The notes beneath the pieces were generated by a model, which was given only the letters and a program-made list of their open reading frames with translations, did not search any database and had not been told where the DNA came from. Source: Lachnospiraceae bacterium (GTDB taxonomy: Bacteria > Bacillota_A > Clostridia > Lachnospirales > Lachnospiraceae). From it: a stretch of DNA of 40,009 nucleotides. The position numbers were made by a program, and so were the translations under genes. Where the stretch lies: assembly GCA_024684065.1 (NCBI GenBank), contig JAIKXO010000159.1:1-40009 (forward strand), written 5' to 3'. Positions 1,409-33,953 of this stretch are shown here, piece by piece. How positions within the stretch are numbered: the stretch's first letter is position 1; every line of letters begins with the position of its first letter.

Positions 1409-1762
1409 TCATTCCGGCAGGAAATCTTTAAATTCCTGTGCAAATATGCTCTCGCTGCAGGCTGTGAGCTTATTATAATAGCTCTCATAGGCGGCAAGGA
1501 TCTGCCTCGCTTCTTTTGTAAGCGCGGCACCGCCTCCGTTTTTTCCGCCGGTGCTTGATTCGATGAGCTTTACGTTTAGACAGTTCTCCGCATTTTTCAT
1601 TATGGACCAGGCTTTGGAATACGCCATTTCCATTGATTTTGCGGCGGAGCGCAGCGAGCCGTGTTCGTCAACCCTTTTGAGGAGCTGCGCAACTCCCGGG
1701 CCAAAGCATTTCCTGTCCGTAAAAAGCCTGGCAGTTATTACCGGATGAAGTTTTTCGCTCAT
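1409..1762 (-). CDS. ModE-family winged-helix regulator, DNA-binding domain only
   Basis: This 117-residue protein is the N-terminal LysR-like winged-helix domain of ModE. Recognisable features are LLKRVDEHGSLRSAAKSMEMAYSKAWSIMK (about residues 27-56; helix-turn-helix) and the glycine-rich wing STGGKNGGGAALT (about 69-81). Classical ModE is about 260 residues and binds molybdate through C-terminal MOP/TOBE domains. These are absent, so direct molybdate sensing is unlikely or needs a partner. The gene is divergent from the DUF3343-yqeC-yqeB-selD run, as expected for a local regulator of molybdenum hydroxylase or selenium-cofactor genes. A GGAAG sequence lies about 14 nt before the ATG, rather far. 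Activator or repressor role cannot be told from sequence. Confidence 0.8.
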   Translation of the reverse strand: MSEKLHPVITARLFTDRKCFGPGVAQLLKRVDEHGSLRSAAKSMEMAYSKAWSIMKNAENCLNVKLIESSTGGKNGGGAALTKEARQILAAYESYYNKLTACSESIFAQEFKDFLPE

Positions 1763-1840
1763 AGTGCCTGCATCTTCCTTTCAACATGTTTCAGACGTTC
1801 AGACGGTTTCCGGCTGCGGCCGGTTTTCAGAGGCAGCTCT

Positions 1841-1880
1841 TTAAAATCTTCCCCTTAAAGTTTCCCTTTAAAAGCTTCCC
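1841..1880 (-). repeat. Three imperfect tandem repeats in the ModE-gene leader
   Basis: On the + strand the units are TTAAAATCTTCCCC, TTAAAGTTTCCC and TTTAAAAGCTTCCC (12-14 nt each, head to tail). They fall between the candidate -10 at 1887-1892 and the start codon of the ModE-like gene, so in its mRNA they read as three purine-rich blocks. This could be a regulator-binding array or leader RNA repeats. No function is shown by the sequence alone. Confidence 0.5.
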
Positions 1881-1886
1881 TTATTT

Positions 1887-1915
1887 ATTATAAGACATTT
1901 ACATCTTCCGCGAAA
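1887..1915 (-). promoter_or_regulatory. Candidate promoter of the ModE-like gene
   Basis: The minus strand reads TATAAT (1892-1887), a consensus -10, with a weak TTTCGC at -35 spacing of 17 nt. It is about 125 nt upstream of the ModE-like start. Only the -10 box is convincing. Confidence 0.4.
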
Positions 1916-1961
1916 CTTAAAAATCGACATAGCATATGTTCAGAAGGCTTTACTGTTCAGT

Positions 1962-1992: not shown

Positions 1993-2130
1993 CAGATAAT
2001 GTAAATATAGTCAACCGGAAGGCTTTGCTGAAAGACCTGATCCCCGGCCGTGTATTGAAGAATACATCCCGTGATGATATACTCAGTATGTGATGCTTTC
2101 GCCATCACAGCGTATCAGACACAGGACGGC

Positions 2131-2373
2131 ATGATTATGAAGGAAAAGAAACCCTGTATCGTTGTCACCTTCCATACTACGGCTGAGGCGATGGCGACAG
2201 AGAGGACCTGCACGAAAAACGGGATAGAGGGAAAGCTTATATCGGCTCCCCGCGTTTTGTCGGCGGATTGCGGAATAGCGTGGAAAAGCCCTCCGGGTGC
2301 GCGCTCTCTGATCGAAGAGGCTCTTAAGGCTGAAAAGATCGAATACGCGGGGATTTATGAGCTGGAGATATAA
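2131..2373 (+). CDS. DUF3343 putative Se/S carrier protein
   Basis: The 80-residue product (starting MIMKEKKPC) matches the DUF3343 pattern: a short beta-alpha protein with FHTTAEAMATE near the N-terminus and the diagnostic SADCGIAWKSPP near residues 45-56, whose Cys-Gly is the likely chalcogen-binding site. DUF3343 proteins occur in selenium-metabolism neighbourhoods and resemble the C-terminal part of some YedF-type proteins. A carrier role for reduced selenium is inferred from family and context. I chose ATG 2131 (AGGA about 5 nt upstream) over a GTG at 2071, because the extra 20 residues are not typical of the family. ATG 2137 is also possible. It ends 2 nt before yqeC starts, so the two are translationally linked. 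Confidence 0.75.
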   Translation: MIMKEKKPCIVVTFHTTAEAMATERTCTKNGIEGKLISAPRVLSADCGIAWKSPPGARSLIEEALKAEKIEYAGIYELEI

Positions 2374-2375: not shown

Positions 2376-3074
2376 ATGAAGATATCATCATTACTTGAGA
2401 TAGGACGGGGTGTTACCGCACTTATCGGAGGAGGCGGAAAAACCACGCTCATATATACTCTGGCAGAGGAGCTTACCGCAAAGGGCTCCGTCATCATCTG
2501 TACGTCGACCCACATCAGGGTTCCCGGACAGTATATGCTCGTTACGGGTGGTGGAAGGGAACTGCGGGATGCGCTGAAAAAAGAACGTTGTGTTTGTGCC
2601 GGTACCCCCGCGGAAAACGGGAAGCTCACCGCACCTTCGGTATCTTTTAAGGAGCTTGAAGCTGTTGCCGATTATGTGCTTGTGGAGGCAGACGGCGCAA
2701 AGGGGCTGCCGCTTAAGGCGCATGCGCCGCACGAGCCGGTGATCCCTGAAAATTCGGGACAGGTTATCCTGGTGGTGGGAGCTGACGGCCTCGGGAAGAT
2801 GATAAAGGAAGCCTGTCACCGTCCTGAAATATGGGCAAAGCTTGCGGGGACGTCTCCTGAGTGCCCTGCCACACCGGAGGGAGAGGCCAGGGTGATATTA
2901 TCTGAGGGCTATGGGGACCGGGTTTTTATTAACAAGGCAGAATCGGCACGGGAATGTGAGCTGGCAGAGGAGCTTGCAGAATTAATTCACCGTCCGGCGG
3001 TTATCGGGAGCCTTAAGAGGGGAAGCTTCGCCTCTTTTAATATAGGAGCCCTCGACTCTGAAGAGGGTATGTAA
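2376..3074 (+). CDS. yqeC: YqeC, selenium-dependent hydroxylase accessory protein
   Basis: A 232-residue P-loop protein: GGGGKTT at residues 18-24 is the Walker A motif, followed by CTSTHIRVP and the acidic VLVEADGAKGLPLKAHAPHEPVIP block (about 100-123) that marks the YqeC family. YqeC is found only with selenium-dependent molybdenum hydroxylases and is thought to act in inserting the labile selenium ligand. The exact reaction is unknown. It starts 2 nt after the DUF3343 gene. Its last nine codons (GALDSEEGM and stop) lie inside repeat A copy 2, and the stop codon arises from a base that differs from the other copies (GTAAGAT against GTCAGAT). The extreme C-terminus is therefore repeat-encoded. 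Confidence 0.88.
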   Translation: MKISSLLEIGRGVTALIGGGGKTTLIYTLAEELTAKGSVIICTSTHIRVPGQYMLVTGGGRELRDALKKERCVCAGTPAENGKLTAPSVSFKELEAVADYVLVEADGAKGLPLKAHAPHEPVIPENSGQVILVVGADGLGKMIKEACHRPEIWAKLAGTSPECPATPEGEARVILSEGYGDRVFINKAESARECELAEELAELIHRPAVIGSLKRGSFASFNIGALDSEEGM

Positions 3075-3118: not shown

Positions 3119-3931
3119 ATGCAGGTGACTGTTCTTATACGCGGTGCGGGAGATATTGCAAGCGGTATTGCCTTAAGGCTTTACCGCTCAGGAATGCGGG
3201 TTATTATGACTGAGATAGAAAAACCCACGACAATACGGCGCTCGGTCGCTTTCTCGGAAGCTGTCCTTAATAAAAGGCAGACCGTGGAGGGAGTGACCGC
3301 AGAACGCGCGGATTCACCGGAAGAAGCTGAAAGTCTTATGGAGCGGGGGATCATTCCGGTCCTCGTCGATCCGCAGTGCTTATGCAGGGTAAGTCTTTTG
3401 CCGGATGTGCTGGTCGATGCGATACTTGCAAAACGTAATCTCGGGACTTCCTTAACGGATGCGCCCGTCGTTATAGGCGTCGGCCCGGGATTTACGGCGG
3501 GAAAAGACTGCCATGCGGTTGTGGAGACAATGCGCGGGCACACGCTCGGAAGGGCTTATTATGAAGGAAGCGCTCTTCCAAATACCAATATCCCGGGCCT
3601 CATAGGAGGATATGCGGGAGAGAGGGTGATCCGCGCGCCCCGTGACGGTATATTTCACAGCACTCATGAGATAGGGGATCCGGTAGGGGAATCGGAAACC
3701 GTAGGCTTCGTTGAAGGAGAGCCCGTAAAGACCACGATCTCCGGCGTGCTGAGGGGGCTTCTGGCAGACGGTATAAGTGTCACTAAGGGCATGAAGTCCG
3801 GAGATGTGGATCCGAGAGGGAAGAGGGAATACTGCGATCTGGTCTCCGACAAGGCGCTTTCGGTCGCCGGCGGCGTGCTTGAAGCAATCCTGCATTACTG
3901 CGCCGATTTGCAAAGCAAATCGAGCGCTTAG
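3119..3931 (+). CDS. yqeB: YqeB / EF2563-family selenium-dependent Mo hydroxylase protein
   Basis: The 270-residue protein opens with VLIRGAGDIASGIALRLY (about 5-22), a Rossmann-type dinucleotide-binding loop typical of the EF2563/YqeB family. It continues with PVVIGVGPGFTAGKDCHAVVETMRGH (about 116-141), another signature of the family. YqeB marks the selenium-cofactor trait of molybdenum hydroxylases and is expected to help mature the Se-Mo centre in the cytoplasm. Its biochemical role is not established. The SD is AGAGGA from repeat A. The last residues (CADLQSKSSA) are encoded by the first hairpin of the array at 3904-4012 and look like an added tail beyond the usual GGVLEAIL ending. Confidence 0.9.
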   Translation: MQVTVLIRGAGDIASGIALRLYRSGMRVIMTEIEKPTTIRRSVAFSEAVLNKRQTVEGVTAERADSPEEAESLMERGIIPVLVDPQCLCRVSLLPDVLVDAILAKRNLGTSLTDAPVVIGVGPGFTAGKDCHAVVETMRGHTLGRAYYEGSALPNTNIPGLIGGYAGERVIRAPRDGIFHSTHEIGDPVGESETVGFVEGEPVKTTISGVLRGLLADGISVTKGMKSGDVDPRGKREYCDLVSDKALSVAGGVLEAILHYCADLQSKSSA

Positions 3932-4074: not shown

Positions 4075-5115
4075 ATGACTGAGAACGAAGTAAAACTTAC
4101 AAAACTTGCAAAATGTGCGGGCTGCGGCGCAAAAGTCGGGGCGGGAGTGCTTGCGCAGCTTCTGGGTGATATGAAGGTACATAACGATCCTGACCTCATC
4201 GTCGGCTTTGATAAAAGCGATGATGCCAGTGTATACAGGGTGAGTGAAGACCTTGCGCTTGTACAGACCGTGGATTTCTTTCCTCCGATCCATGACGATC
4301 CGTATATCTTCGGGCAGATCGCCGCGACGAACGCGCTTTCAGACGTGTACGCCATGGGCGGTGAGCCGAAGCTTGCGCTTAATATCATGGCGGTGCCGAA
4401 GGATATGCCTTCTGAAACCGTTCATGAGATCTTAAGGGGAGGTTATGATAAGGCGTACGAAGCGGGAACTGTAATTTCCGGAGGACACAGCATCCTGGAT
4501 GAAGAGCCCAAGTACGGGCTTTCCGTGACGGGTTTCGTGCATCCTGACAAAGTCCTTAAAAACAGCGGGGCGAAGCCGCAAGACGTGCTGTTTCTTACCA
4601 AGCCCTTAGGCATAGGGATACTTACTACGGCGGCAAAGGTCAATATGACGAGCGACGAGGGCATGGAGCTTGCGGTCAGGCTTATGACTACGCTCAATAA
4701 GGCTGCCAGGGATGTCATGGTAAAATATAATGTGCACGCCTGTACGGACGTGACGGGGTTTTCCCTTATGGGGCACGGGCTTGAAATGGCGCAGGGGAGC
4801 AATGCGGAGCTCCATTTTGACGTGGACTCTATCTGCCTGATCCCTGAGGCGTTAGAGTTTGCAAAGCTCGGGATCCTGCCTGAAGGAATGTACCGCAACC
4901 GGAGCTTTGCCGAAGCTTATGTTGACCCCGGAGACGTAAAGCTTGCGATCCAGGATGTGCTTTATGATCCGCAGACTTCAGGCGGTCTGCTTATCGCCGC
5001 AGATCCGGAAGATGCCGGTGCGCTTTTTGATGAGATGAAGGAATCGGTGCCTTATGTGAGGAGGATAGGGACTGTTGAGGAATACCGGGGAGGTAAGAGG
5101 ATCTTTCTAAGGTGA
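4075..5115 (+). CDS. selD: Selenophosphate synthetase SelD
   Basis: SelD makes selenophosphate from selenide and ATP. The 346-residue protein has the family layout: N-terminal glycine-rich KCAGCGAKVG loop (residues 13-22), then VGFDKSDDASVYR and the ATP/metal-binding VQTVDFFPPIHDDPYIFGQIAATNALSDVYAMGG region, and a C-terminal QTSGGLLIA motif. Cys17 and Lys20 fall exactly at the catalytic positions of E. coli SelD. The neighbouring Cys19 of E. coli is Ala here, and no selenocysteine is used. In this context selenophosphate should feed the labile-Se cofactor of the hydroxylases. SelA, SelB or tRNA-Sec genes are not in the window. The SD (CGGAGCG) is weak and the four-hairpin array lies just upstream. 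Confidence 0.95.
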   Translation: MTENEVKLTKLAKCAGCGAKVGAGVLAQLLGDMKVHNDPDLIVGFDKSDDASVYRVSEDLALVQTVDFFPPIHDDPYIFGQIAATNALSDVYAMGGEPKLALNIMAVPKDMPSETVHEILRGGYDKAYEAGTVISGGHSILDEEPKYGLSVTGFVHPDKVLKNSGAKPQDVLFLTKPLGIGILTTAAKVNMTSDEGMELAVRLMTTLNKAARDVMVKYNVHACTDVTGFSLMGHGLEMAQGSNAELHFDVDSICLIPEALEFAKLGILPEGMYRNRSFAEAYVDPGDVKLAIQDVLYDPQTSGGLLIAADPEDAGALFDEMKESVPYVRRIGTVEEYRGGKRIFLR

Positions 5116-5245
5116 GCGGGCAGCCCGTCCGGGATAAACCTGCAGTAAGCTGCAGATGGTACGCCTTTAAAAGGTTTTGCCGGGTTTTCTGCGGTCCGGG
5201 ACTGTTCCTGACATCATTTCAGTACAGAAGGAGGTATGTTTAAAC

Positions 5246-5503
5246 ATGAGAAACTGTAAATTTACCCCGAAAGGGGTCTGCTCGAGACTGATCGAATATG
5301 AGCTTGATGAGGAGAACCGCATACACAATCTCCGCTTTACGGGAGGCTGCAACGGTAATTTAAAGGCGATAGGGAAGCTCCTGGAGGGAGAGAGCGCGGA
5401 AAAGACGATCCGCATCCTTAAGGGAAACGACTGCGCGGGAAGAGGTACCTCCTGTGCGGATCAGCTGGCTGTAGCTTTGGAGGAGGAGCTGGCCCGGAGC
5501 TAA
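5246..5503 (+). CDS. TSCPD-domain protein (TIGR03905-like)
   Basis: The 85-residue protein matches the small stand-alone TSCPD domain: FTPKGVCSRLIEYEL at the N-terminus, FTGGCNGNLKAIGKLLEG in the middle, and CAGRGTSCADQLAVALEE at the end. The four cysteines in these segments (about residues 4, 12, 33 and 63-69) suggest metal or Fe-S binding. This domain also occurs at the C-terminus of some ribonucleotide reductases, and the stand-alone form has no established function. GAAGGAGG lies 11 nt before the chosen ATG, while the frame is open further upstream. It is 130 nt after selD on the same strand and followed by a terminator, so it is probably the last gene of the selenium operon. Confidence 0.8.
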   Translation: MRNCKFTPKGVCSRLIEYELDEENRIHNLRFTGGCNGNLKAIGKLLEGESAEKTIRILKGNDCAGRGTSCADQLAVALEEELARS

Positions 5504-5636: not shown

Positions 5637-7199
5637 TCACTCCCTCACCGCTTTCATTTTCTGTTTATTCCCGTACATGATCTCGTCCGCCCGTTTGAAT
5701 ACGTTTTCCGCAGTCCTGTCGTGTTCGGGATCGAATCTGGCGATCCCCACGGCGGCAGATACCCTTTCCCAGTCAGGAAGTGATTCATTATTCTGCAGGC
5801 TCTCAAGTACTTTGAGGAGGCTCCGTTCAAGTGATGTAGCGTTATCATAGTCATCACCCATCAGTACGATCACGAATTCGTCGCCGCCTATACGAAATAC
5901 CGGAGAATGCTTGAAAACATTGCAGACAATGCTGCATAACCTGACGATCGTGATATTTCCTTTGTCGTGCCCGTAGGTATCGTTGATGCGCTTTAAGTAG
6001 TTTAAGTCGACCATACCCATGCAGAACTCCGTAAAGCCGTTATCGATCTTATGATCCAGGTCTTTTACCATCACATCGTATGCCGCCTTGTTCCTTATCC
6101 CGGTAAGGGAGTCCCTCATGGCAAGCTTCTTAGCGTCGGCTTCGCGCTGCTTGGTCTCATCAAGCTCTTTACTGGTGCTTACCAGGGTTTTCATATGATT
6201 GTCAAGCTCCACAATCATGTCGGACATCTGCTTTGCAAGCACGCCTATCTCGGTTTTATCGCCGGCAAGCGACATGACCTTGTCAGCCACGGATACTGCT
6301 TTTGTATCGGAATATTCCCTGACATTTTCGGTCAGCATGGATATTTTGGTAAGAAAACGCCTGTCCATGTACCACATGATAACGATCAGGCTTATAATAA
6401 GTATACCGGCGATATTTCCGGCAAGGAGCAGTGAATTGTTAAGGATCTGTATGTTTATACTGTCAATGGCCACCTCGGTGCATATAAGCCCGAGCTTTTC
6501 CCCTCCGACAAACAGCGGCGTATAACAGGTATAATTGTAGCCGTATTCATTATCCCATGACTGGAATTCATCAAGCTGCATCCCTTCATCCCAGGTCCTC
6601 CAGAGTACCTGTACCTCGTCCTTCGGGTTCTCCTCGGGCGGATCTACGGAGCAGACGAGCAGATTTTCAGGGTTTTCCTCATCAGGTTCTCTCAGGGGAT
6701 CAACGACGTAGGTGACCGTTCCGGTGTGGCTGTCGGGCTCGATCAGATAGGCGTACTCAAGACCAAACTTGTCTCTTGCGTCCTCAAAGACTATAGTCCA
6801 GTATTCGTAGTCATATGTAAGATACAGTAAAAGCAGTTCCTCCGGCAGATCGTCTATGGTCATGTCAACCCCGAACAGCGTTCCGGGAAAGGCTTTTGCA
6901 TAAGCCAGGTTAAAGGCCTCAAGCGAAGATTCGTATTCGTCAAATTCAAGAGGTATCTCCAGTTTGCTGCCGTACTGCTCAAGATATCTGTAGAATTTCA
7001 GAAAATCCTCCCCGTCATGGATTATGAGCGAGTTCAGGTAGTTGTTTATCTTGCGGATCTCCTGAAGCTTCAGGTCATTGTACGCAGCACTCTCGTTCCT
7101 GAAAGCCGCTAAGGAACAGAAGATCGTAAGGACAATGCCGAACAGCAGAAAAATTACGGCAAATCGCGCTTTTAAAGTATCTGTTTTCTTCAAGATCAT
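5637..7199 (-). CDS. Membrane-bound GGDEF diguanylate cyclase
   Basis: The protein (520 residues) has an N-terminal membrane helix (ARFAVIFLLFGIVLTIFCSL), a roughly 230-residue extracytoplasmic sensor rich in acidic and aromatic residues, a second helix (NIAGILIISLIVIMWYM), a HAMP-like linker, and a C-terminal GGDEF domain. The active site is RIGGDEF near residue 440, so cyclic-di-GMP synthesis from two GTP is expected. No RxxD inhibitory site precedes it at the usual position (KHSP there), so product feedback at that site is unlikely. The signal sensed is unknown. Start choice is open: GTG 7202, ATG 7199 or TTG 7193. GGGAG is almost adjacent to the first two and 8 nt from the TTG. It converges on the selenium operon and is probably independent of it. 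Confidence 0.9.
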   Translation of the reverse strand: MILKKTDTLKARFAVIFLLFGIVLTIFCSLAAFRNESAAYNDLKLQEIRKINNYLNSLIIHDGEDFLKFYRYLEQYGSKLEIPLEFDEYESSLEAFNLAYAKAFPGTLFGVDMTIDDLPEELLLLYLTYDYEYWTIVFEDARDKFGLEYAYLIEPDSHTGTVTYVVDPLREPDEENPENLLVCSVDPPEENPKDEVQVLWRTWDEGMQLDEFQSWDNEYGYNYTCYTPLFVGGEKLGLICTEVAIDSINIQILNNSLLLAGNIAGILIISLIVIMWYMDRRFLTKISMLTENVREYSDTKAVSVADKVMSLAGDKTEIGVLAKQMSDMIVELDNHMKTLVSTSKELDETKQREADAKKLAMRDSLTGIRNKAAYDVMVKDLDHKIDNGFTEFCMGMVDLNYLKRINDTYGHDKGNITIVRLCSIVCNVFKHSPVFRIGGDEFVIVLMGDDYDNATSLERSLLKVLESLQNNESLPDWERVSAAVGIARFDPEHDRTAENVFKRADEIMYGNKQKMKAVRE

Positions 7200-7342
7200 C
7201 ACTCCCGTCAGATGCGATACGTTATTTGCTGCAGGTTATAAATAATACAGGACAGATTCCTTTTCGTCCGGAAAGCCTTATCAGGACAGGTTTTACCGGG
7301 ACAAATCCATTATTGCAAAAAAGTCATACACTTCCAAAGGAC

Positions 7343-7477: not shown

Positions 7478-7535
7478 GGGAGCGGTGTTTTTTTATTTCC
7501 GCTCTCACATTATGACTGTCCCGTTTCTTGACAGT
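7478..7535 (+). promoter_or_regulatory. Two hairpins in the importer leader
   Basis: GGGAGCGG (7478-7485) pairs with CCGCTCTC (7499-7506) around a T-rich loop, and ACTGTC (7515-7520) pairs with GACAGT (7530-7535). They occupy most of the short leader between promoter and SD (GGAGGG, 7552-7557). The sequence does not match the purine riboswitch core, so any regulation is of an unrecognised type. Confidence 0.4.
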
Positions 7536-7563
7536 ATCAAAATTTAAAAATGGAGGGAAAAAC

Positions 7564-8754
7564 ATGAAAAAGTGGATTAGTGTATTATGTGCCGTCACTA
7601 TGGCGGGATCGCTCCTTGCGGGCTGTGCCGGACAATCGCTTGATTCAGGCGGGAGCGAGCCTTCGGCAGACGCAGCGCAGACTGAGGCTCAGGCGCCTTC
7701 GGCAGGTGATTCAGAGGCATCCGGAGGGCTTAAGATCGCTATAGTAAGTTCGCCTTCAGGCGTGGATGACGGTTCATTTAACGAGAACATTTATGACGGT
7801 ATCCTTGCTTATATCGATGAGGATCCAAGCAGCTCCGTAACTCCCGTCAAGGAAACGACCGGTGATGTTGCTGCCTGTATCCAGACCGTTCAGGATATTG
7901 TGGCGGATTATGACGTGATAGTCTGCTGCGGCTTCCAGTTTGCGGGGATCGGCGGTATTGCGCAGGAAAACCCGGACGTGAAATTCCTTATGGTCGATAC
8001 TGGGGCCACGGATGCTGAAGGAAACGAGATAACGCTGGATAACGTTTACTCAATGACCTTTAAAGAGCAGGAAGGCGGCTTTTTAGCGGGTGTTGCCGCC
8101 GCTCTGACCACGAAATCCGGAAAGGTTGCGGTTGTAAACGGTATCGCCTATCCTTCAAACGTTAACTACGAATACGGGTTCATGAGCGGTGTCAACTATG
8201 CCAATGCACATTTTGATACGAAAGCCGAGTGTGTGGAACTCGATTCCTATGCAGGGACAGACGTGACCGGGGCGAATGTGGGAGGCAACTATGTGGGCTC
8301 CTTCGCGGATGAGGCGACAGGCAAGGTCGTCGGGCAGTCTCTTATAGATCAGGGCTGTGATGTGATCTTTGTTGCGGCCGGTGGCTCCGGAAACGGCGTA
8401 TTCACTGCCGCAAAGGAGAATGAAGGAGTGTTCATCATAGGCTGTGATGTCGATCAGTTCTCGGACGGCGTAAACGGTTCCGGAAATATCATCCTGACCT
8501 CGGCTTTAAAGGTTATGGATATGAACGTGACCAAACAGCTTAAGAAAATAGCGGACGGTTCCTTTAAGGGCGAGAATGCGCTTCTGGGAGCGGAAAGCGA
8601 CTCTGTAGGATTTGTCAGCACACAAGGCAGGAACCAGCTTACGGATGATGCGATCTCAAAGATCGAAGAAGCCTATGGGCTTATAAAGGACGGAACGGTT
8701 GTACCTGCTGCGAACTTTAACGAGATGACACCGGATAACTTTACCGGACTTTGA
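7564..8754 (+). CDS. BMP-family nucleoside/purine-binding lipoprotein
   Basis: The 396-residue product is the substrate-binding lipoprotein of a BmpA/PnrA/NupN-type ABC importer. The lipobox LLAGC places the lipidated Cys at residue 21 and is followed by a disordered S/A/E-rich linker. The mature part opens KIAIVSSPSGVDDGSFNEN, typical of PnrA-like proteins that bind purine nucleosides, and carries MTFKEQEGGFLAGVAAA and GCDVDQ further on. The chosen ATG has GGAGGG 6 nt upstream. An in-frame upstream start would spoil the signal peptide. It heads a four-gene operon with its ATPase and two permeases. Given the purine enzymes around it, nucleosides or purine bases are the likely ligands, though this is inferred. 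Confidence 0.92.
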   Translation: MKKWISVLCAVTMAGSLLAGCAGQSLDSGGSEPSADAAQTEAQAPSAGDSEASGGLKIAIVSSPSGVDDGSFNENIYDGILAYIDEDPSSSVTPVKETTGDVAACIQTVQDIVADYDVIVCCGFQFAGIGGIAQENPDVKFLMVDTGATDAEGNEITLDNVYSMTFKEQEGGFLAGVAAALTTKSGKVAVVNGIAYPSNVNYEYGFMSGVNYANAHFDTKAECVELDSYAGTDVTGANVGGNYVGSFADEATGKVVGQSLIDQGCDVIFVAAGGSGNGVFTAAKENEGVFIIGCDVDQFSDGVNGSGNIILTSALKVMDMNVTKQLKKIADGSFKGENALLGAESDSVGFVSTQGRNQLTDDAISKIEEAYGLIKDGTVVPAANFNEMTPDNFTGL

Positions 8755-26580: not shown

Positions 26581-26633
26581 ACTACATGTATATCTGCCGG
26601 CACGGTTTATGATATTTCGCTCCCGAGAATTGT

Positions 26634-26739
26634 GCATAGGGTATCTCATGGGCAGGGTTCCCATACAACAGAGACACTTACGCTTAAACAAAGTGTGTAC
26701 CGGACGCTTAAGGGGCATGATACCCTTTCAGCAGAGAGG
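26634..26739 (+). repeat. Two degenerate hairpin units resembling repeat A
   Basis: ATAGGGTATCTC then ATGGG-CAGGGTT-CCCAT then ACAACAGAGA, and further on TTAAGGGGCATGATACCCTTT then CAGCAGAGAGGA. Each repeats the theme of repeat A (GGG/CCC hairpin followed by CAAYAGAGGA-like SD) with much lower identity. The second ends at the presumed SD of the XdhC-type gene. Possibly decayed copies, possibly coincidence. Confidence 0.4.
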
Positions 26740-26755
26740 ATATGGTTTACACAGA

Positions 26756-27844
26756 ATGAATGGATATTATAAGGCGCTTAAAAGCTGCGATCCAAATGAG
26801 GAAACTATAACATTGACCGTTATAAACGGGGATGCCGCGGGGGAAAAAGCGGTCATAAGCGGGGAAAAGCCTGTTTATTACTCGAAAGAAAACGGATTTT
26901 TAAAGCTCCACGAGAAGGAACTGTGTTCCCTGTCCGGCAGCGGTATCGTGACCGTTGACGGTTTTCAGATCTATCACGAAAAACTGGGGCACGAAAAGAA
27001 GCTTGTCATCTGCGGGTGCGGGCATGTATCCATCCCGGTCATAAGGCTTGCGAAGATGGTCGGGTTTAAGGTAACGGCCATAGACGACCGTCCCGAATTT
27101 GCGGACAAGGCTAAAGAAGCGGGAGCCGATCTGGTTATTTCGGGCACCTTTAAAAAAGCTCTCGGCAGCATAGACGGCGACCCCTTTACTTACTATGTGA
27201 TAGTCACGAGAGGACACCGCTGGGATGAGGAATGCCTCTTTGAGATATGTGGTAAAAAGCATGCTTATATCGGAATGATGGGGTCAAAGAGGCGGATCGC
27301 CATGGCTAAGGAAAGCCTGCTTAACGAGGGGATCGACAGGAGCATAATTGACAGCCTGCATTCCCCGATAGGACTTGAGATAGGCTCCGAAACCCCGGAG
27401 GAGATAGCGGTTTCCGTGATGGCGGAGATCATACAGGTTAAGAACATGAACCCCGATCATCCGATCCCGGAGGATATACTTGCGGCTATAAACAGACAGG
27501 AGACTGAGGAGGCGTCTGAGGAAACAGAGGGCACGCACACAGCTTCTGGTGAAAACGGAAGTTTGAACACGGTTAACAGGAAAATGATCCTTGCAACGAT
27601 CATAAGGAGAGAAGGCAGCGCGCCAAGGGAAGCAGGCGCGAAGATGCTGTTTACCGGGGATTCTGCCATAAACACCATCGGCGGAGGCCTTCTGGAAGCA
27701 CGGGCGAAGAAGAAGGCACTTGAAATGATCGAAAAAGGCGCGCAAAAGCCGGAGATCCTGCATCTTGAGCTCACCGCGGATGCGGCGGCAACGGAAGGGG
27801 AGGTATGCGGCGGCAGGGTCGATATCCTTTTAGAGCCCGTATAA
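26756..27844 (+). CDS. XdhC/CoxI-type maturation factor with C-terminal CoxI domain
   Basis: A 362-residue protein of the XdhC family, which binds molybdenum cofactor and helps insert it with its sulfur (here perhaps selenium) ligand. The Rossmann part is at about 83-235 (VICGCGHVSIPVIRLAKMVGF, IDDRPEF, TRGHRWDEE, IGMMGSKRR, SPIGLEIGSETPEEIAVSVMAEI). A linker rich in E, T and S follows, then a clear CoxI domain at 277-362 (ATIIRREGSAPREAGAKML, TIGGGLLEARAKKKA, GEVCGGRVDILLEP). In the usual order CoxI is N-terminal. Residues 1-80 here may be a decayed CoxI-like region (TVINGDAAGEKAVIS). I chose ATG 26756, because the 49 residues before it read through repeat-like DNA. AGAGGA is 16 nt upstream, rather far. 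Confidence 0.83.
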   Translation: MNGYYKALKSCDPNEETITLTVINGDAAGEKAVISGEKPVYYSKENGFLKLHEKELCSLSGSGIVTVDGFQIYHEKLGHEKKLVICGCGHVSIPVIRLAKMVGFKVTAIDDRPEFADKAKEAGADLVISGTFKKALGSIDGDPFTYYVIVTRGHRWDEECLFEICGKKHAYIGMMGSKRRIAMAKESLLNEGIDRSIIDSLHSPIGLEIGSETPEEIAVSVMAEIIQVKNMNPDHPIPEDILAAINRQETEEASEETEGTHTASGENGSLNTVNRKMILATIIRREGSAPREAGAKMLFTGDSAINTIGGGLLEARAKKKALEMIEKGAQKPEILHLELTADAAATEGEVCGGRVDILLEPV

Positions 27845-27997: not shown

Positions 27998-28348
27998 ATG
28001 ATTAGAAAAAAAGAGGATTGTAAGACAGAGCAGAGAGAGCATATGAGAGACGGCAAGGGCGTCGTGGAGCTTGTCAACTTTATAGAAGGCCCGGAGGAGC
28101 TTTGCGGTAAGGGCAGGCTGTTTTCAAAGATAATCCTGAAGAGCGGATGCAGCATAGGCTTCCATATCCATGAGAAGGACAGCGAGCTTTTCTATATCCT
28201 GAAGGGCAGCGCTGAGTATAACGATAACGGCGAGATCAAAACGGTAGAGGCAGGCGATGTCACGATCTGCCCTGTAGGGAGCGGTCACGGCATTGAAAAT
28301 AAATCCGATGAGACGGTTGAGCTTATAGCCGTTATAGTTTATGAGTAA
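27998..28348 (+). CDS. Single-domain cupin protein
   Basis: A 116-residue cupin: motif 1 GFHIHEKDSELFYILKG gives ligands H56, H58 and E63, and motif 2 DVTICPVGSGHGIEN gives H97. A divalent metal is therefore likely. The substrate cannot be told, and small cupins of this type are often isomerases, sugar- or signal-binding proteins. GAGGAGG lies 7 nt before the ATG. It is 150 nt downstream of the XdhC-type gene on the same strand, with no clear terminator or promoter in between, and may belong to the same transcript. Confidence 0.8.
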   Translation: MIRKKEDCKTEQREHMRDGKGVVELVNFIEGPEELCGKGRLFSKIILKSGCSIGFHIHEKDSELFYILKGSAEYNDNGEIKTVEAGDVTICPVGSGHGIENKSDETVELIAVIVYE

Positions 28349-28363: not shown

Positions 28364-29296
28364 TTATTCATCAAAAAGCGGGGTTGAGAAATATCTTTCG
28401 GCGGTGTCGGGCAGGACGGTCACGACTGTCTTGCCCTCGCCAAGCTTTGCGGCGAGCCTGACGGCGGCCGCGACATTGGTGCCGCTTGATATCCCGCACA
28501 TTATCCCTTCCTCCCTTGCGAGCCTTCTCGAAACTTCTATAGCTTCGTCATCGGTCACGATGTAGATCTCGTCATAGATATCCCGGTTTAAGATGTCGGG
28601 AATGATCCCGTCGCCTATCCCCATCTGGAGATGTGTACCGATATTGCCTCCGGCAAGGATGGCGGCATTTTCGGGCTCTACGGCCCAGATCTCTATATCG
28701 GGATACTGGGCTTTTAAGACTTCCCCTATTCCCGTAAGGGTACCACCGGTGCCTATCCCCGAGCAGAACCCGTGTATCGGGCGGGCGGTCTGCGCCATTA
28801 TCTCAAGAGCGGTATGGTTTTTGTGGGCGAGGACATTGTTCTTATTGGAAAACTGCTGCGGAACGAAAACGTCCGGGTCCTCACGTTCCATCTTAAGAGC
28901 GGTCTGAAGGCATTCCTCTATGCATGCGCCGATATCCCCGGCATCATGTATGAGTATCACCTCCGCTCCGTAATGCTTTACAAGCTTGGCTCTTTCCTCG
29001 CTGACGGAGTCAGGCATGATTATTATGGTGCGGTATCCCTTTACTGCTCCGATCAGCGCGAGACCGATCCCCTGGTTTCCGCTTGTCGGCTCCACGATCG
29101 TTGTCTTTCCCGGCGCGATCAGGCCTTCATGCTCCGCTGCTTCGATCATATTTAGCGCGGTCCTGGTCTTTATAGACCCTCCTATATTCTGGCCCTCTAT
29201 CTTCACGAGGATCTCGGCGCTTTTGGGCAAAGGTATCCTGTTTAATCTCACAAGGGGGGTGTTTCCGACCGCCTCCAGCATATTTTCATATATCAT
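28364..29296 (-). CDS. Cysteine synthase-like PLP enzyme
   Basis: A 310-residue fold-type II PLP enzyme of the CysK/CBS family. The PLP lysine lies in EGQNIGGSIKTRTA (about residues 34-47), the substrate loop is PTSGNQGIGLAL, the phosphate-binding loop GIGTGGTLTGIGE, and GISSGTN is near the C-terminus. Two positions differ from classical O-acetylserine sulfhydrylase: the lysine is followed by TR rather than DR, and TSGNQG replaces TSGNTG. The thiol or amine acceptor is therefore open, and a role in (seleno)cysteine handling next to the desulfurases is only suggested by position. GGAG lies 9 nt before ATG 29296. An upstream in-frame ATG at 29332 is less likely. Confidence 0.82.
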   Translation of the reverse strand: MIYENMLEAVGNTPLVRLNRIPLPKSAEILVKIEGQNIGGSIKTRTALNMIEAAEHEGLIAPGKTTIVEPTSGNQGIGLALIGAVKGYRTIIIMPDSVSEERAKLVKHYGAEVILIHDAGDIGACIEECLQTALKMEREDPDVFVPQQFSNKNNVLAHKNHTALEIMAQTARPIHGFCSGIGTGGTLTGIGEVLKAQYPDIEIWAVEPENAAILAGGNIGTHLQMGIGDGIIPDILNRDIYDEIYIVTDDEAIEVSRRLAREEGIMCGISSGTNVAAAVRLAAKLGEGKTVVTVLPDTAERYFSTPLFDE

Positions 29297-29467
29297 GACA
29301 TTTCTCCGTATGGATGTATAGTCCGTCTTCACGGCTGCCGTAATAGTCTATCACACTTTCATAAAAATCCAAACAAATATTTTTCAGCGGATAAGGCCGG
29401 CATGCAAAACTCCGTTTATTTCCCGTTATCCGGTTGTTACAGTTTTTGGGATATATATAAGACTTTT

Positions 29468-29634: not shown

Positions 29635-31131
29635 ATGTTAGGAGTAAAAAGATTAAAACGAAACGATATGATTGCCTGTGTACTCTGCAATGAGGCTCCG
29701 TGCAGCGCAGCCTGCCCGTATATGGATCCCGCCGGGGCCCTTAGGAGCGTATGGTTTGATAATGAAGATGTGGGGGCTTTAAAGCTTCCGGAGGATAATC
29801 CCTGCAAAAACTGCGATGCGCCCTGCGAAAGGGAGTGCGTAAAGCACGGGGAGGTTCCCGTAAAGAAGCTTATGACAAAGCTCTGTGAAGAAGTAAGGCC
29901 TGAGGCGGAAATACCGATCCCTGAAGACGAGAGCAGGCTGTCCTGCGATCTCTGCGGGATACCGCTTGAAAACCCGTTCCTTCTGTCATCATCTGTTGTA
30001 GCTTCGACCTATGATATGTGTGCGAGAGCCTTTGAGGCCGGATGGGCGGGAGCCTGTTTTAAGACGATATGTTCTCTTGATATCCATGAGGCGTCGCCCA
30101 GGTTTTCAGCGATCACGGGAGACAACGGTACGATCATAGGCTTTAAGAACATCGAGCAGCTCTCCGATCACAGCGTGGCTGAGAATATGGAAATATTCAG
30201 ACGCCTTAAGGAAAAGTATCCGAAGAAGTTCATCCTTGCCTCGATAATGGGGCAGAATGAGGATGAGTGGGAGGAACTTACGGCCCTTTGCGCAGAGAAC
30301 GGCGCGGATGCGGTCGAGCTGAATTTCTCCTGCCCGAACATGCAGGAGGGCGGACTGGGGAGCGATATCGGCCAGGTCCCGGAGTTTGTAGAGAAGTTCA
30401 CAAAAGCCGCAAAAAGAAGCGCTAAAATTCCGGTCCTTGCAAAGCTGACCCCTAACGTGGCTGAAATGAGCCCGGCGGCTGAGGCCGCCATAAGGGGCGG
30501 GGCGGACGGGATTGCCGCGATCAATACGATAAAAAGCATCACCGGAGTAAATCCGTATACATACGTATCCGAGCCCGCGGTCAGAGGAAAGTCCGCGCTG
30601 GGCGGTTACAGCGGAAATGCGGTAAAGCCCATCGCGCTGAGGTTTATCGCGGAGCTAGGACACAATGAAATGATGAAAGGAAAGCATATAACCGGGATGG
30701 GGGGGATAGAAACCTGGAGGGATGCGCTTGAATTTGTCCTTCTCGGGGCAGGCTCCGTTCAGGTGACTACCGCGGTTATGCAGTACGGCTACAGGATCAT
30801 TGACGACCTGAAGGCCGGTTTGAATTATTATCTTGCCCAGAACGGGGTCAAAAAGATCGGAGAGATCGTCGGGGCGGGACTTGACTTTGTCGATGGTTCG
30901 ACCGATGCCCTGGAACGTGATACAGTCTTATTCCCGAAATTCGACAGGGATAAGTGCATAGGCTGCGGCAGATGTGTGATCTCCTGCATGGACGGAGGCC
31001 ATCAGGCCATCAGGTTTGAAGACCGGACTCCGAAGCTTGACGGAAGCAAATGCGTCGGATGCCATCTCTGTATGCTGGTCTGCCCTCAGAATGCGATATC
31101 CTCTGCATCAAAAAGAATAAACAGAGGGTAG
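29635..31131 (+). CDS. preA: PreA-like dihydropyrimidine dehydrogenase fused to N-terminal Fe-S domain
   Basis: A 498-residue enzyme in three parts. Residues 15-68 have two four-cysteine sets (C15, C18, C23, C27; C57, C60, C64, C68) like the N-terminal Fe-S domain of PreT, GltD and mammalian dihydropyrimidine dehydrogenase. Residues about 100-420 are an FMN barrel of the dihydroorotate/dihydropyrimidine dehydrogenase class with NFSCPNM (catalytic C233). The C-terminus has two 4Fe-4S motifs (CIGCGRCVISC, CVGCHLCMLVCP). The FAD/NAD(P)H part of PreT is missing, and no preT is in the window. Family activity is reduction of uracil or thymine. In a purine locus, another heterocycle or an electron-transfer role is possible. 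GGAGG is present 8 nt before the ATG. The shared leader C links its control to the Se-dependent dehydrogenase. Confidence 0.87.
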   Translation: MLGVKRLKRNDMIACVLCNEAPCSAACPYMDPAGALRSVWFDNEDVGALKLPEDNPCKNCDAPCERECVKHGEVPVKKLMTKLCEEVRPEAEIPIPEDESRLSCDLCGIPLENPFLLSSSVVASTYDMCARAFEAGWAGACFKTICSLDIHEASPRFSAITGDNGTIIGFKNIEQLSDHSVAENMEIFRRLKEKYPKKFILASIMGQNEDEWEELTALCAENGADAVELNFSCPNMQEGGLGSDIGQVPEFVEKFTKAAKRSAKIPVLAKLTPNVAEMSPAAEAAIRGGADGIAAINTIKSITGVNPYTYVSEPAVRGKSALGGYSGNAVKPIALRFIAELGHNEMMKGKHITGMGGIETWRDALEFVLLGAGSVQVTTAVMQYGYRIIDDLKAGLNYYLAQNGVKKIGEIVGAGLDFVDGSTDALERDTVLFPKFDRDKCIGCGRCVISCMDGGHQAIRFEDRTPKLDGSKCVGCHLCMLVCPQNAISSASKRINRG

Positions 31132-31138
31132 GAAGGAC

Positions 31139-32260
31139 ATGATCTACCTGAACAATGCGGCAACCTCCTATCCGAAACCCAAAGCGGTCACAGAGGCCTT
31201 TGTAAGGGCTGTAAACGCGCCTCCGTGCGGACAGTTCAGAAGCAGTGAAACGGAGGGGTCGGATATAGTCGCTGACTGCAAAAATCTCCTTGGAGAGCTT
31301 CTGGGGATTGAAAACCGGGACAGGATATACATGACCTCCGGTTCGACCGAAGCCCTGAATACGATCATTAAGGGGCTTTGCGTTCCGGCGGGACAGATTA
31401 TCACGACCGCGACTGAGCATAACAGCGTGCTGCGCCCTCTGTATAATCTGCCGGATGATACGGGGGAGCCCTTTATCCTTCCCTGTGATGAAAGCGGGCT
31501 TGTGGCTCCGGAGCTTTTTGAGGAGGAGGCGCGGAAGGGGAAGTACAGGGTCATAGTGCTGAATCATTGCTCCAATGTGACAGGCGCCGTGCAGGACGCT
31601 GCCGCGTTCGGCGCCATAGCAGGGAAATACGGCCTGATTTTTGTTTTGGATGCTTCACAGAGTGCAGGTTGTCTTCCGGTTGCGGCCGATGAGTGGCAGG
31701 CGGATGCGCTGGCTTTTACGGGACATAAAAGCCTGCTGGGTCTTCAGGGCACAGGCGGTTTTTATGTCAGAGAGGGAGTTCGGTTAAAGCCGTTAAAATA
31801 CGGGGGTACCGGCCTTGATTCCTCCCGTGTGCGCTATGAAGAGGGACAGTATGAATATGAAGCGGGCACTCAGAACATCGCGGGGATCATTGCCCTTTCG
31901 GAAGGGATCCGTTTTATCCTTAATGAGGGCCTTCAAAACATCATGCGCTGCGAATCGGAGCTTATCACGCTTTTGCTTTCGCTCCTTTCTGAGATCAGAG
32001 GGGTGAAGATTTATGGGAGCAGGCTTAAGGAGAGGGGCCCGGTGTTAAGCTTTGGCATGGATAAACTGCCGCCCGCCGACATTTCCTATATCCTTCAGAA
32101 CAGCTTCGGCATAGTCACAAGGGCAGGTTTCCACTGCAGTCCCTTCATCCATCGGTATATCGGAAGCGGAGAGAAAGGAACCGTACGGATCAGCGTTTCC
32201 TGCTTCAATAAAAGGGAGGATATTCTGGCGCTTTCCGGGGCGCTTAAGGAGCTTATATGA
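31139..32260 (+). CDS. EF2568-type cysteine desulfurase/selenocysteine lyase 2
   Basis: A 373-residue class V PLP enzyme paralogous to the one at 21895-23031. The PLP lysine is K197 (FTGHKSLLGLQG), the histidine block is ATEHNSVLRPLY, and the loop cysteine is C333 in TRAGFHCSPFIHR, with Ser in place of Ala after Cys. Both therefore keep the residues for desulfuration or deselenation. The gene starts 7 nt after preA and ends in an ATGA overlap with the next one, so it is tightly within the preA operon. Two copies in one locus suggest either separate sulfur and selenium duties or separate regulation. Confidence 0.86.
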   Translation: MIYLNNAATSYPKPKAVTEAFVRAVNAPPCGQFRSSETEGSDIVADCKNLLGELLGIENRDRIYMTSGSTEALNTIIKGLCVPAGQIITTATEHNSVLRPLYNLPDDTGEPFILPCDESGLVAPELFEEEARKGKYRVIVLNHCSNVTGAVQDAAAFGAIAGKYGLIFVLDASQSAGCLPVAADEWQADALAFTGHKSLLGLQGTGGFYVREGVRLKPLKYGGTGLDSSRVRYEEGQYEYEAGTQNIAGIIALSEGIRFILNEGLQNIMRCESELITLLLSLLSEIRGVKIYGSRLKERGPVLSFGMDKLPPADISYILQNSFGIVTRAGFHCSPFIHRYIGSGEKGTVRISVSCFNKREDILALSGALKELI

Positions 32261-32544
32261 CGATCACCGGCAAAAGAAGATCACTTGAGACCTGTACCGA
32301 AAGCGGATGGGATGCATATGACCTTATGACAGCCGGGCCCCTTTCGGATGAAGACATAGAGACTCTGCGCAGGCTGGAAGGTTCTTTTCTGTATCTTAAA
32401 AACCTGCGGAAGCCTTTTTTTAAGATAGAAAGCCATAAATATGTGATAAAAGGAGTTAAGGGCGATAACTTTTTCCGGTTCGCGGCCCACCGGGATGATA
32501 TGTCTGAGCTTGACAGGATAATCCGGCTTTTAGAGGCGGAATAA
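32257..32544 (+). CDS. Hypothetical protein, 95 residues, in the preA operon
   Basis: I do not recognise this family. The product has a basic N-terminus (TGKRRSLETC), a predicted two-part alpha/beta body, and ends in an acidic helix (DELDRIIRLLEAE-like: MSELDRIIRLLEAE). It has one cysteine and no metal motif. It is translationally coupled to the second desulfurase (ATGA overlap), so it is surely expressed with it and may be a small partner or acceptor. The length and fold pattern (SHKYVIKGVKGDNFFRFAAHRDD) would also suit a DUF3343-like carrier, but the diagnostic CG motif is absent, so that is not claimed. Confidence 0.7.
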   Translation: MTITGKRRSLETCTESGWDAYDLMTAGPLSDEDIETLRRLEGSFLYLKNLRKPFFKIESHKYVIKGVKGDNFFRFAAHRDDMSELDRIIRLLEAE

Positions 32545-32585
32545 AAATACAGAATTAATAGAATATCAACAGGAGGAAGAAAAAA

Positions 32586-33953
32586 ATGAAGAAAAAAGCA
32601 ATGGAAGAGAAGCTTGTCGTTCGTCCTATAGTAGGATGTCTTACACATTCCCATTTCTGGGAGGGACCGTGCAGAGCGGGGCATGCGGAGGATATGACAA
32701 AGGAAGCCGAGAATGCGGCCGCGGACAGATATTTTGCGAAGATGGGCGAAGAGCTTAAGCAGGTCATCCCCGAGGTTTCGTTACTGCCGATGGTGGACGC
32801 AAGGTATGACGAGAAATTTATCGTGCCAAACGAGGTCTATGCTCAGATCGAAGAGGATATGGATAAGGCGGATATATTCCTTTGCATGGGCTGGAGGATC
32901 CCCAAGCTTGAGCGTTACAGGAAGCCTGTCGTTGTGATGCAGAACGGCAATGAGGGAATAGATTTTGCGGCTTACTGCAGAAATATAGGAGTGGAAGCTT
33001 ACGTTGCAATGGATATAAAGGATCTGAATGAGATCCTCCATTTTCTCTGGGTCAGAAAGGCCATCGCCTCAACAAGGGTCCTTTGCCTTTCGGCGGCGGC
33101 GCAGCCGACCTTTGGCATCCAGAGCCTCATAAGGGATCCGGAGATACTGCGCCAGAAATACGGCCTGGAAGTGATCAAGCTTCCTTTCTACGAGATCGTC
33201 AAGTACATGGATCAGGTGACGGACGAGGAAGCAAAGCCTATAGCTGATAAGATCATTAAGGGGTCGGATGATGTTAAGGTAAACACGGAGTGGTTTATCA
33301 ATGACATAAAGTATTATCTTGCGGCAAAGAAAATGATGGATGTATACGATTGCAACGCGTTTACGACAGCCTGTCATGAACTGTGCACCTCGGAGATCCC
33401 TCAGAACCGCAAATTCACGCCCTGTATGTGCCATTCCATCATGAAGGATGAGGGCATACCGAGCGGCTGTGAGGAAGACCTCAATGCGCTGATGGCAATG
33501 TGCATCATGCAATATACGGCGAACCGCCCGTGCTTCATGGGAAATCCGAACCATGAGACAGATGAGCTTCTTCGGATCCATCATGCGGTACCTGCCCTTT
33601 CAATGAACGGCTACGGGACAGAGCCGTTAAAATATAAGCTCTGGGCCTTCACGGGACAGGGCTTCGGAGGAAAGCTCCAGATAGATTTTACGGAGAATAA
33701 GCAGGACAAGGTCACTCTCGGAAGGTTCAATCCCGCGGGAGACACGATGGTTCTAAAGACCGGAGAAGTGATCCGCACGGAATATGATGACGTATACTGC
33801 AGCCCCTATTATTATATCCAGATGGACGACGCGCGTTCATACATGCATACGCTTGCGGGCTTCGGACATCATCAGGTGCTGATCTTCGGAGATTATTCGA
33901 AGGAGATAAAAGAGCTTTCCCGCTACATGGGCTTTAAGATCGAGGAGGGCTGA
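32586..33953 (+). CDS. L-fucose/L-arabinose isomerase-fold protein
   Basis: The 455-residue protein resembles the FucI/AraA-like group. The C-terminal half holds GIPSGCEEDLNALMAMCIMQYTANRPCFMG (about 290-320), matching the GCE-D pattern in which the Glu binds the catalytic metal, followed by LRIHHAVPALSM and, near the end, AGFGHHQVLIFGDY, which matches the TGHH region of fucose isomerases. A ketol isomerase or a binding-only relative is likely. The natural sugar is unknown, and no sugar kinase or aldolase is nearby. It follows the 95-residue gene by 41 nt with its own AGGAGG SD, probably the end of the preA operon. A ribose-phosphate or nucleoside-sugar role would fit the importer but is speculation. 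Confidence 0.65.
   Translation: MKKKAMEEKLVVRPIVGCLTHSHFWEGPCRAGHAEDMTKEAENAAADRYFAKMGEELKQVIPEVSLLPMVDARYDEKFIVPNEVYAQIEEDMDKADIFLCMGWRIPKLERYRKPVVVMQNGNEGIDFAAYCRNIGVEAYVAMDIKDLNEILHFLWVRKAIASTRVLCLSAAAQPTFGIQSLIRDPEILRQKYGLEVIKLPFYEIVKYMDQVTDEEAKPIADKIIKGSDDVKVNTEWFINDIKYYLAAKKMMDVYDCNAFTTACHELCTSEIPQNRKFTPCMCHSIMKDEGIPSGCEEDLNALMAMCIMQYTANRPCFMGNPNHETDELLRIHHAVPALSMNGYGTEPLKYKLWAFTGQGFGGKLQIDFTENKQDKVTLGRFNPAGDTMVLKTGEVIRTEYDDVYCSPYYYIQMDDARSYMHTLAGFGHHQVLIFGDYSKEIKELSRYMGFKIEEG

Follow-up and report, generated by a model that had tools for sequence, protein, structure and literature searches.

A labile-selenium locus in a Lachnospiraceae bacterium with a candidate urate-reducing molybdenum hydroxylase

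The window described here is a stretch of 40,009 nucleotides from a Lachnospiraceae bacterium (NCBI assembly GCA_024684065.1, contig JAIKXO010000159.1, positions 1 to 40,009), in which genes for a labile selenium cofactor are found among genes for purine breakdown and two molybdenum hydroxylases. The gene order begins with a ModE-like gene on the minus strand, followed by DUF3343, yqeC, yqeB, selD, a TSCPD gene, a GGDEF gene (minus), a four-gene BMP-type importer, yedE and a short yedF. Next are a TIGR03311 hydroxylase gene, mocA (minus), xdhA, xdhB, xdhC, a gene for an EF2568-type pyridoxal phosphate (PLP) enzyme (minus), ade (minus), guaD, the gene of an XdhC-type factor and a cupin gene. 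The right end holds cysK (minus), preA, a second EF2568-like gene and the genes for two proteins called h95 and h455 here, beyond which are clpS, clpA and others with no visible link to the locus. Open reading frames (ORFs) of the window were scanned with hidden Markov models, and scores are given below with curated NCBIfam cut-offs in brackets or by reference to Pfam domain cut-offs. Family profile matches located each gene named in a preliminary description of this DNA at or near the position assigned to it there. Twelve of the proteins named in that description or adjoining its genes are over the curated NCBIfam cut-off, one of them (CysK) narrowly. Six others (ModE, MocA, GuaD, the XdhC factor, YedF and the second EF2568-like protein) fall under it and are named with reserve, and each of the six passes a Pfam domain cut-off.

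The plus-strand genes yqeC (2376..3074), yqeB (3119..3931) and selD (4075..5115) are adjacent, and their products exceed the cut-offs of TIGR03172 (174.6 bits; cut-off 73), TIGR03309 (361 bits; cut-off 220) and TIGR00476 (397.7 bits; cut-off 125), which is the signature of a labile-selenium, or selenium-dependent molybdenum hydroxylase (SDMH), locus. No fused XdhC domain was found in the YqeB of the window. The N-terminus of SelD carries the sequence CAGCGAK, with a cysteine, and its frame is open without a UGA codon. A DUF3343 protein, a putative selenium or sulfur carrier (PF11823, Se_S_carrier, 78.3 bits), is encoded just upstream (2071..2373, plus strand). Further downstream on the same strand are yedE (12742..13851), whose product is a putative selenium transporter (TIGR04112, 480.1 bits; cut-off 200), and a gene for a YedF/TusA-like protein of only 68 amino acids (13983..14189; PF01206, 65 bits), the match of which to TIGR03527 (54.9 bits; cut-off 110) covers only positions 1-65 of the 194 in that model. 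The first EF2568-type PLP enzyme, a putative selenocysteine lyase (21895..23031, minus strand; TIGR01977, 430.5 bits; cut-off 377), and its second, diverged counterpart (31139..32260, plus strand; 347 bits against the same cut-off) both retain, in an alignment judged by eye, the lysine and cysteine positions that mark cysteine desulfurase-like enzymes.

Beside the selenium genes are those of the two molybdenum hydroxylases, which is the second signature of an SDMH locus. The first hydroxylase, a TIGR03311 selenium-dependent enzyme and proposed urate reductase (14457..17060, plus strand), matches its model over full length (positions 3-848 of 848) with 1252 bits (cut-off 830). The gene for a MocA-type cytidylyltransferase (17039..17797, minus strand; TIGR03310, 143 bits, cut-off 186; PF12804) is convergent with it and overlaps its 3' end. 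The second hydroxylase is a xanthine dehydrogenase encoded by xdhA, xdhB and xdhC (17948..21863, plus strand; NF043082, NF043083 and NF043084), in which XdhB is the flavin adenine dinucleotide (FAD) subunit and XdhC the iron-sulfur subunit, with scores (cut-offs) of 1159 (780), 421 (310) and 255 (217). Purine deamination is represented by adenine deaminase (Ade; 23148..24944, minus strand; TIGR01178, 604.7 bits; cut-off 472) and a guanine deaminase-like amidohydrolase (GuaD; 25255..26541, plus strand; TIGR02967, 341 bits; cut-off 375), next to which is an XdhC/CoxI-type maturation factor (26609..27844, plus strand; PF13478 and PF02625; NCBIfam 248 bits, cut-off 350). The link between SelD, YqeB, YqeC and molybdenum hydroxylases that the preliminary description had drawn from Haft and Self is borne out by this adjacency, and the locus falls within a labile-selenium trait that is already described (Haft and Self 2008, PMC2276186; Zhang 2008, PMC2432076).

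Genome contigs were scanned with the TIGR03311 protein, which gave at least 570 relatives, and the best 80 loci were kept. Many of these 80 are metagenome-assembled genomes (MAGs) from herbivore guts labelled Oscillospiraceae, Ruminococcaceae or Lachnospiraceae, and the closest is 89% identical. Counting genes at 40% identity and 40% coverage, with a 10-kb flank past the TIGR03311 gene, we found yqeB near it in 30 of the 80, mocA in 28, xdhA in 27, selD and modE in 21 each, yqeC in 15, DUF3343 in 14, yedE and yedF in 13 each and the first EF2568 gene in 11. The arrangement of TIGR03311, mocA on the opposite strand and xdhA is present in 24 loci, and a core of nine genes (DUF3343, yqeC, yqeB, selD, yedE, yedF, TIGR03311, mocA and xdhA) is linked and syntenic in 9. 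In eight of these nine the gap between selD and yedE is 87-175 base pairs (bp), and it is 1117 bp in the remaining one (L052). The corresponding gap in the window is 7.6 kb and is filled (5177-12419) by the TSCPD, GGDEF and importer genes. Neither the TSCPD protein nor, at 40% identity, the GGDEF protein is found near the TIGR03311 gene in any of the 80 loci, and the complete set of importer genes is beside it in none, 59 of the 80 reaching 7 kb leftward; a partial importer ATPase (50% identity) is present at the edge of L076. Judged by this comparison, the stretch is a presumptive lineage-specific insertion. What is conserved as a unit is the selenium/hydroxylase core, the salvage genes being neighbours particular to the window.

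The TIGR03311 enzyme has fused iron-sulfur and molybdenum domains and lacks an FAD domain. Its best PDB matches, over full length including the iron-sulfur part, are the aldehyde oxidoreductases 1dgj and 1sij, which are presumably of the Desulfovibrio type. This layout fits an external small electron carrier. The likeness to these aldehyde oxidoreductases is full length at only 327-334 bits, whereas the substrate predicted for the TIGR03311 enzyme is a purine. A tree made by a quick method holds the window protein and 79 of the 80 relatives, one of fewer than 700 amino acids having been dropped. The window pairs with L014 (SH-aLRT, the Shimodaira-Hasegawa-like approximate likelihood ratio test, 89), and linkage labels cluster on the tree (17 changes, with 0 of 200 shuffles as low), 18 of its 77 inner branches being open. 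A search for the KRHP motif left 24 of the 80 TIGR03311 proteins without a match; active-site motifs were assigned by comparison with bovine xanthine oxidoreductase. One MAG labelled Flexilinea (Chloroflexota; L033) has a TIGR03311 gene and xdhABC that are 76-82% identical to those of the window, which reflects either a transfer or a mis-binned contig.

Several lines of evidence tie this enzyme to the reductive breakdown of urate. In 2025 a gene set was reported to degrade urate via 2,8-dioxopurine, comprising XdhD-YgfM, YgfK, SsnA, HyuA, YgeW, YgeY and YgeX in E. coli, with the first step assigned to XdhD-YgfM or to the XdhAC of C. sporogenes (PMC12507026, PMC12990295); XdhAC is a molybdenum enzyme that makes 2,8-dioxopurine (PMC12990295). 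Earlier, ygfK and ssnA had been tabulated beside yqeB, and ygfK had been called a selenate reductase subunit (PMC2276186). When E. coli K-12 genes served as the reference, ygfK (over 250 bits) was detected in 25 of the 80 fetched loci, and in 11 its match ends 5-30 bp upstream of the TIGR03311 match. In 22 of the 25 ygfK loci a second molybdenum hydroxylase is not seen in the fetched stretch. In the locus closest by sequence (L014), hyuA, yqeA, ygeW, ygeY, ygeX, ygfK, ssnA and a xanQ homologue diverge from the selenium core.

The association extends to whole genomes. We picked by eye, from the 80 loci, 26 relatives in which the TIGR03311 gene has xdhA or selenium genes next to it, all of them draft genomes; L011, L023, L032 and L033, in which mocA or xdhA is present, and other selenium-gene loci such as L051 and L066 were excluded. 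YgfK is over the cut-off in 25 of the 26. Of 120 genomes sampled from the family to which G001 belongs, 31 have TIGR03311 over the cut-off, 33 have YgfK and 29 have both. YgfK is thus present in 29 of the 31 TIGR03311-positive genomes versus 4 of the 89 others (Fisher 3e-21, uncorrected for kinship), and two of the four genomes with YgfK only hold TIGR03311 fragments under the cut-off. The selenium genes follow a similar distribution, with YqeB in 28 of the 31 versus 10 of the 89 and SelD in 26 of the 31 versus 18 of the 89. From these distributions the presumed xanthine dehydrogenase of the TIGR03311 family appears to track the reductive urate pathway. Both of the xanthine dehydrogenases named in the preliminary description are present in the window, but since the TIGR03311 enzyme tracks urate reduction, that label is probably too simple for it. 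The suggestion that purine oxidation is coupled to a reductive step is supported, by the YgfK and SsnA that relatives encode at other places and not by the PreA-like protein of the window.

We read the locus as serving anaerobic purine breakdown with labile selenium and not selenocysteine, its TIGR03311 enzyme being most likely a reductase that converts urate to 2,8-dioxopurine, and we give this reading a probability of roughly 0.55. Starting from the observed gene content, conserved core and co-occurrence in relatives, we infer the catalytic steps in the window organism, the placement of selenium on the TIGR03311 enzyme and the part played by each hydroxylase. YedE would import a selenium compound, EF2568, YedF and DUF3343 would probably release and carry selenium, and SelD would produce selenophosphate. 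Together with MocA and factors of the XdhC type, YqeB and YqeC would then place selenium on the molybdenum cofactor of the hydroxylase. Adenine and guanine would be deaminated by Ade and GuaD to hypoxanthine and xanthine, which XdhABC, with its FAD subunit, would oxidise to urate. Urate would most likely be reduced to 2,8-dioxopurine by the FAD-less TIGR03311 enzyme, bearing labile selenium, and this product would feed YgfK, SsnA, HyuA and YgeW/X/Y, which are expected to be encoded elsewhere in the genome.

A candidate electron donor is suggested by the relatives. In 16 of the 80 loci, as found by tblastn, a polyferredoxin gene directly follows the TIGR03311 gene (for example L041:12592-13056 and L051:12580-13074), and in L041 the two genes overlap by 4 bases at the TIGR03311 stop codon. 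Automatic detection of an iron-sulfur ORF downstream gave 14 of 80, five contigs ending too early, versus the 16 by tblastn. The product, of approximately 155-165 amino acids with three to four 4Fe-4S motifs, is closest to RnfB-type iron-sulfur proteins and is a candidate electron donor of the selenium enzyme. Reduced ferredoxin has been suggested for C. difficile XdhD (PMC12507026), and the donor of XdhAC is termed undiscovered in a commentary (PMC12990295). We advance a broader and more tentative proposal, which we judge less likely than not. Perhaps gut clostridia use the labile selenium cofactor chiefly for reductive dehydroxylation, with the TIGR03311 enzyme as a selenium-dependent urate reductase that makes 2,8-dioxopurine and the RnfB-type polyferredoxin encoded directly after it as its dedicated donor in many lineages, the partner having been replaced in the lineage of the window when the gene came to lie beside mocA-xdhABC and the genes for selenium. 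In this way the co-occurrence joins the selenium and electron-donor questions in testable genes. If the proposal is true, dietary selenium could affect the removal of urate by gut bacteria, which touches on gout. The step to it is short, since C. difficile has already been shown to depend on SelD and YqeB when it grows on urate and, partly, when it grows on xanthine (Johnstone and Self, PMC11448449). Our search of titles and abstracts, with most subscription papers outside it, found none in which urate reduction is attributed to the labile-selenium TIGR03311 enzyme or a polyferredoxin is proposed as its donor. In the available text, PMC12990295 does not mention selenium (0 occurrences), and PMC12507026 contains the word a single time, in a reference.

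Several observations weigh against assigning urate reduction to the TIGR03311 enzyme. All 80 TIGR03311 proteins keep GGGFGGKE, which we take to be the motif of canonical xanthine oxidoreductases, and GGGFG(N/S)KQ is found in the window XdhA, E. coli XdhA and E. coli XdhD. The TIGR03313 model, presumably an XdhD-type model linked to E. coli XdhD, gives the window XdhA 372 bits versus 218 bits for the TIGR03311 enzyme. Searches of the window by tblastn with E. coli proteins gave no match to YgfK, HyuA, YgeW, YgeX or YgeY (E 1e-3) and only a weak match to SsnA inside guaD, so the gene set for reductive urate breakdown is not found within these 40 kb; nor was a match to the polyferredoxin found in the window at E 1e-4. 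SsnA is over the cut-off in 22 of the 26 relatives, with pieces in three more (two pieces in G005 and in G007, one in G015), and G003 has YgfK not over the cut-off and a weak SsnA match only. Among the 31 TIGR03311-positive genomes of the family sample, 2 have no YgfK, 3 no YqeB and 5 no SelD over the cut-off. Moreover, it is by name alone that C. sporogenes XdhAC is likened to TIGR03311, the name suggesting fused A and C parts.

Some of these points suit a different view, in which the TIGR03311 enzyme is a selenium-dependent xanthine dehydrogenase acting on the xanthine/urate couple beside a selenium-free XdhABC of other preference, for example for hypoxanthine, and the YgfK link reflects joint use of urate. 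The family name and score agree with this view, as does the oxidoreductase-like motif. EF2570 of E. faecalis has been reported as a selenium-dependent xanthine dehydrogenase and clostridial SDMH enzymes likewise as xanthine dehydrogenases, and C. difficile selD mutants retain the use of hypoxanthine (PMC11448449). However, where the TIGR03311 enzyme is the only molybdenum hydroxylase seen beside ygfK, the pathway needs an enzyme that converts urate to 2,8-dioxopurine, and the tight co-occurrence with YgfK also argues for urate reduction. We consider the dehydrogenase assignment doubtful, if the best of the alternatives.

Another possibility is that genes outside the window make selenocysteine or selenouridine and that SelD supplies this synthesis as well. 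None of the window ORFs scanned gave SelA or SelB over the cut-off, and no tRNA or other RNA family was found in the window (ARAGORN; Rfam at gathering score), in agreement with the earlier statement that SelA, SelB and tRNA-Sec are absent from it. Among the 26 relatives SelD is over the cut-off in 25, SelA in 1, SelB in 2 and YbbB in 0. A tRNA-Sec exceeds the gathering score in 3, two of them clear (70 and 67 bits) and one marginal (G025, 47.7 versus 47). Two relatives, G017 and G018, have SelB with a clear tRNA-Sec, and G017 additionally has SelA, which speaks for such a wider role. In 23 of the 25 SelD-bearing drafts, G025 among them, no SelA, SelB or YbbB is over the cut-off, and the window SelD is the cysteine form, which makes the wider role improbable. 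The idea that SelD may serve only the cofactor is thereby supported in the relatives, and SelD looks to be an orphan by gene content. Ten organisms with orphan SelD, most of them clostridia, were described earlier, and labile 75Se was reported for E. faecalis (Zhang et al. 2008, PMC2432076). In G017, selA, selB, tRNA-Sec and selD are located within approximately 20 kb of the TIGR03311 gene (C14:303233-314204, beside L026), and thus labile-selenium and selenocysteine genes can share one place. Separately, 14 of the 44 SelD matches in the family sample contain one in-frame TGA (for example G028, G031, G051, G060 and G081) and are likely selenocysteine forms.

The least probable alternative is that the block from 1409 to 33953 is one co-inherited purine pathway whose reductive step is carried out by the PreA-like protein as a UacX-type 2,8-dioxopurine reductase. 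The genes are physically adjacent, and the preliminary description treated them as one locus. PreA (29635..31131, plus strand; NF006183, 518 bits; cut-off 335) has flavin mononucleotide and 4Fe-4S domains, a cysteine-rich N-terminal segment and no FAD domain, which is the layout of UacX and of ferredoxin-dependent dihydropyrimidine dehydrogenase (DPD), its substrate being putative; the lack of an FAD domain is as reported for C. difficile UacX (PMC12507026). A partial PreA (71%, residues 323-497) is encoded at the edge of L027, approximately 7.4 kb from the TIGR03311 gene and with no other core gene there, and G003, the relative with YgfK not over the cut-off, has a PreA homologue (72%). Against this, of the 44 loci whose sequence extends 9.5 kb past the TIGR03311 gene, none has ade and one (L071) has guaD. 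The genes for CysK, PreA, h95 and h455 lie past the 10-kb flank, which makes their count of 0/80 unfair, and 12 relatives were therefore extended, 11 by approximately 20 kb (to approximately 30 kb past the TIGR03311 gene) and one by 10 kb (to approximately 20 kb). None of the 12 has ade, guaD, the XdhC factor, CysK, PreA, h95 or h455 at E 1e-6. PreA passes the NCBIfam model for dihydropyrimidine dehydrogenase, and seven of eight relatives with a PreA homologue of at least 69% have YgfK. Ten regions around PreA homologues were fetched, of which nine (L104 excluded) were annotated by ORFs and by blastp comparison with the proteins of the window and of E. coli, and no purine genes recur in the nine, so that PreA is not favoured as the 2,8-dioxopurine reductase. 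An argument from the position of the catalytic cysteine of DPD failed; E. coli PreA likewise lacks a cysteine there. The importer, too, is complete in none of the 80 loci, and co-inheritance as one unit is not supported.

In comparison with known systems, the locus is a new and unusually full member of the trait described in 2008. It shares with described SDMH loci the grouping of SelD, YqeB, YqeC, MocA, YedF-like and EF2568-like proteins with molybdenum hydroxylases, and apparently the orphan SelD of clostridia (PMC2276186, PMC2432076). It differs in packing YedE, DUF3343, two hydroxylases, ade, guaD and a BMP-type importer within 27 kb, and in lacking ygfK and ssnA. We take EF_2570 of E. faecalis to be of the TIGR03311 type. 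Its cluster, EF2563-EF2582, likewise groups EF_2570 with SelD, YqeB, YqeC and EF2568 but includes YgfK and SsnA homologues, where the window instead has XdhABC, Ade and GuaD (PMC2276186, Table 1). With the reductive uric acid pathway the locus shares the fused, FAD-less layout, as the name XdhAC suggests, and the adjacency of TIGR03311 to pathway genes in 25 of the 80 loci, and it differs in having none of the downstream enzymes.

The remaining features of the window are less closely tied to these questions. The ModE-like helix-turn-helix regulator (1409..1762, minus strand; TIGR00637, 72.8 bits, cut-off 98.5; Pfam HTH_1) is divergent from the selenium genes, and no molybdate-binding domain was found in it. 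Between modE and DUF3343 there is no convincing ModE-type operator, with one half-site in one of nine sequences. The TIGR03905 TSCPD protein (5177..5503, plus strand; 87 bits, cut-off 67.7) is followed by the GGDEF diguanylate cyclase (5637..7202, minus strand; PF00990), which is either a bystander or a local insertion. The BMP/PnrA-type ABC importer (7528..12419, plus strand) consists of a binding protein (PF02608, Bmp), an ATPase (PF00005, ABC_tran) and two permeases (PF02653, BPD_transp_2, twice) and is a putative purine importer. Homologues of other purine transporters are found near the TIGR03311 gene in relatives (XanQ in 4, UacT in 3 and GhxQ in 2 of the 80 loci), which suggests that purine uptake recurs with varied transporters. 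A cupin protein (27998..28348, plus strand; PF07883) and cysteine synthase A (CysK; 28364..29332, minus strand; TIGR01139, 356.9 bits, cut-off 351) are putative members of the locus.

The h95 and h455 genes occupy 32257-33953 (h455 at 32586-33953). The first belongs to no family, and neither has a selenium or purine signature. A role for h455 as a selenium or purine enzyme was rejected; it belongs to an L-fucose-isomerase-like family, with weak AraA and Fucose_iso_C matches and no PDB sequence match at E 0.1. There are 798 homologues of h455, and the 120 matches listed share 77-90% identity with it across 99-100% of its length. Homologues of the two carry the near-consecutive tags K6G23_10840 and K6G23_10830, several being labelled Lachnospiraceae, so they look like a conserved pair unrelated to purines or selenium. 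Finally, 20 of the 94 fetched stretches, some of which share contigs, contain a recurrent PAS_6/HTH_22 (YheO-like) regulator (for example L043:9053-9697).

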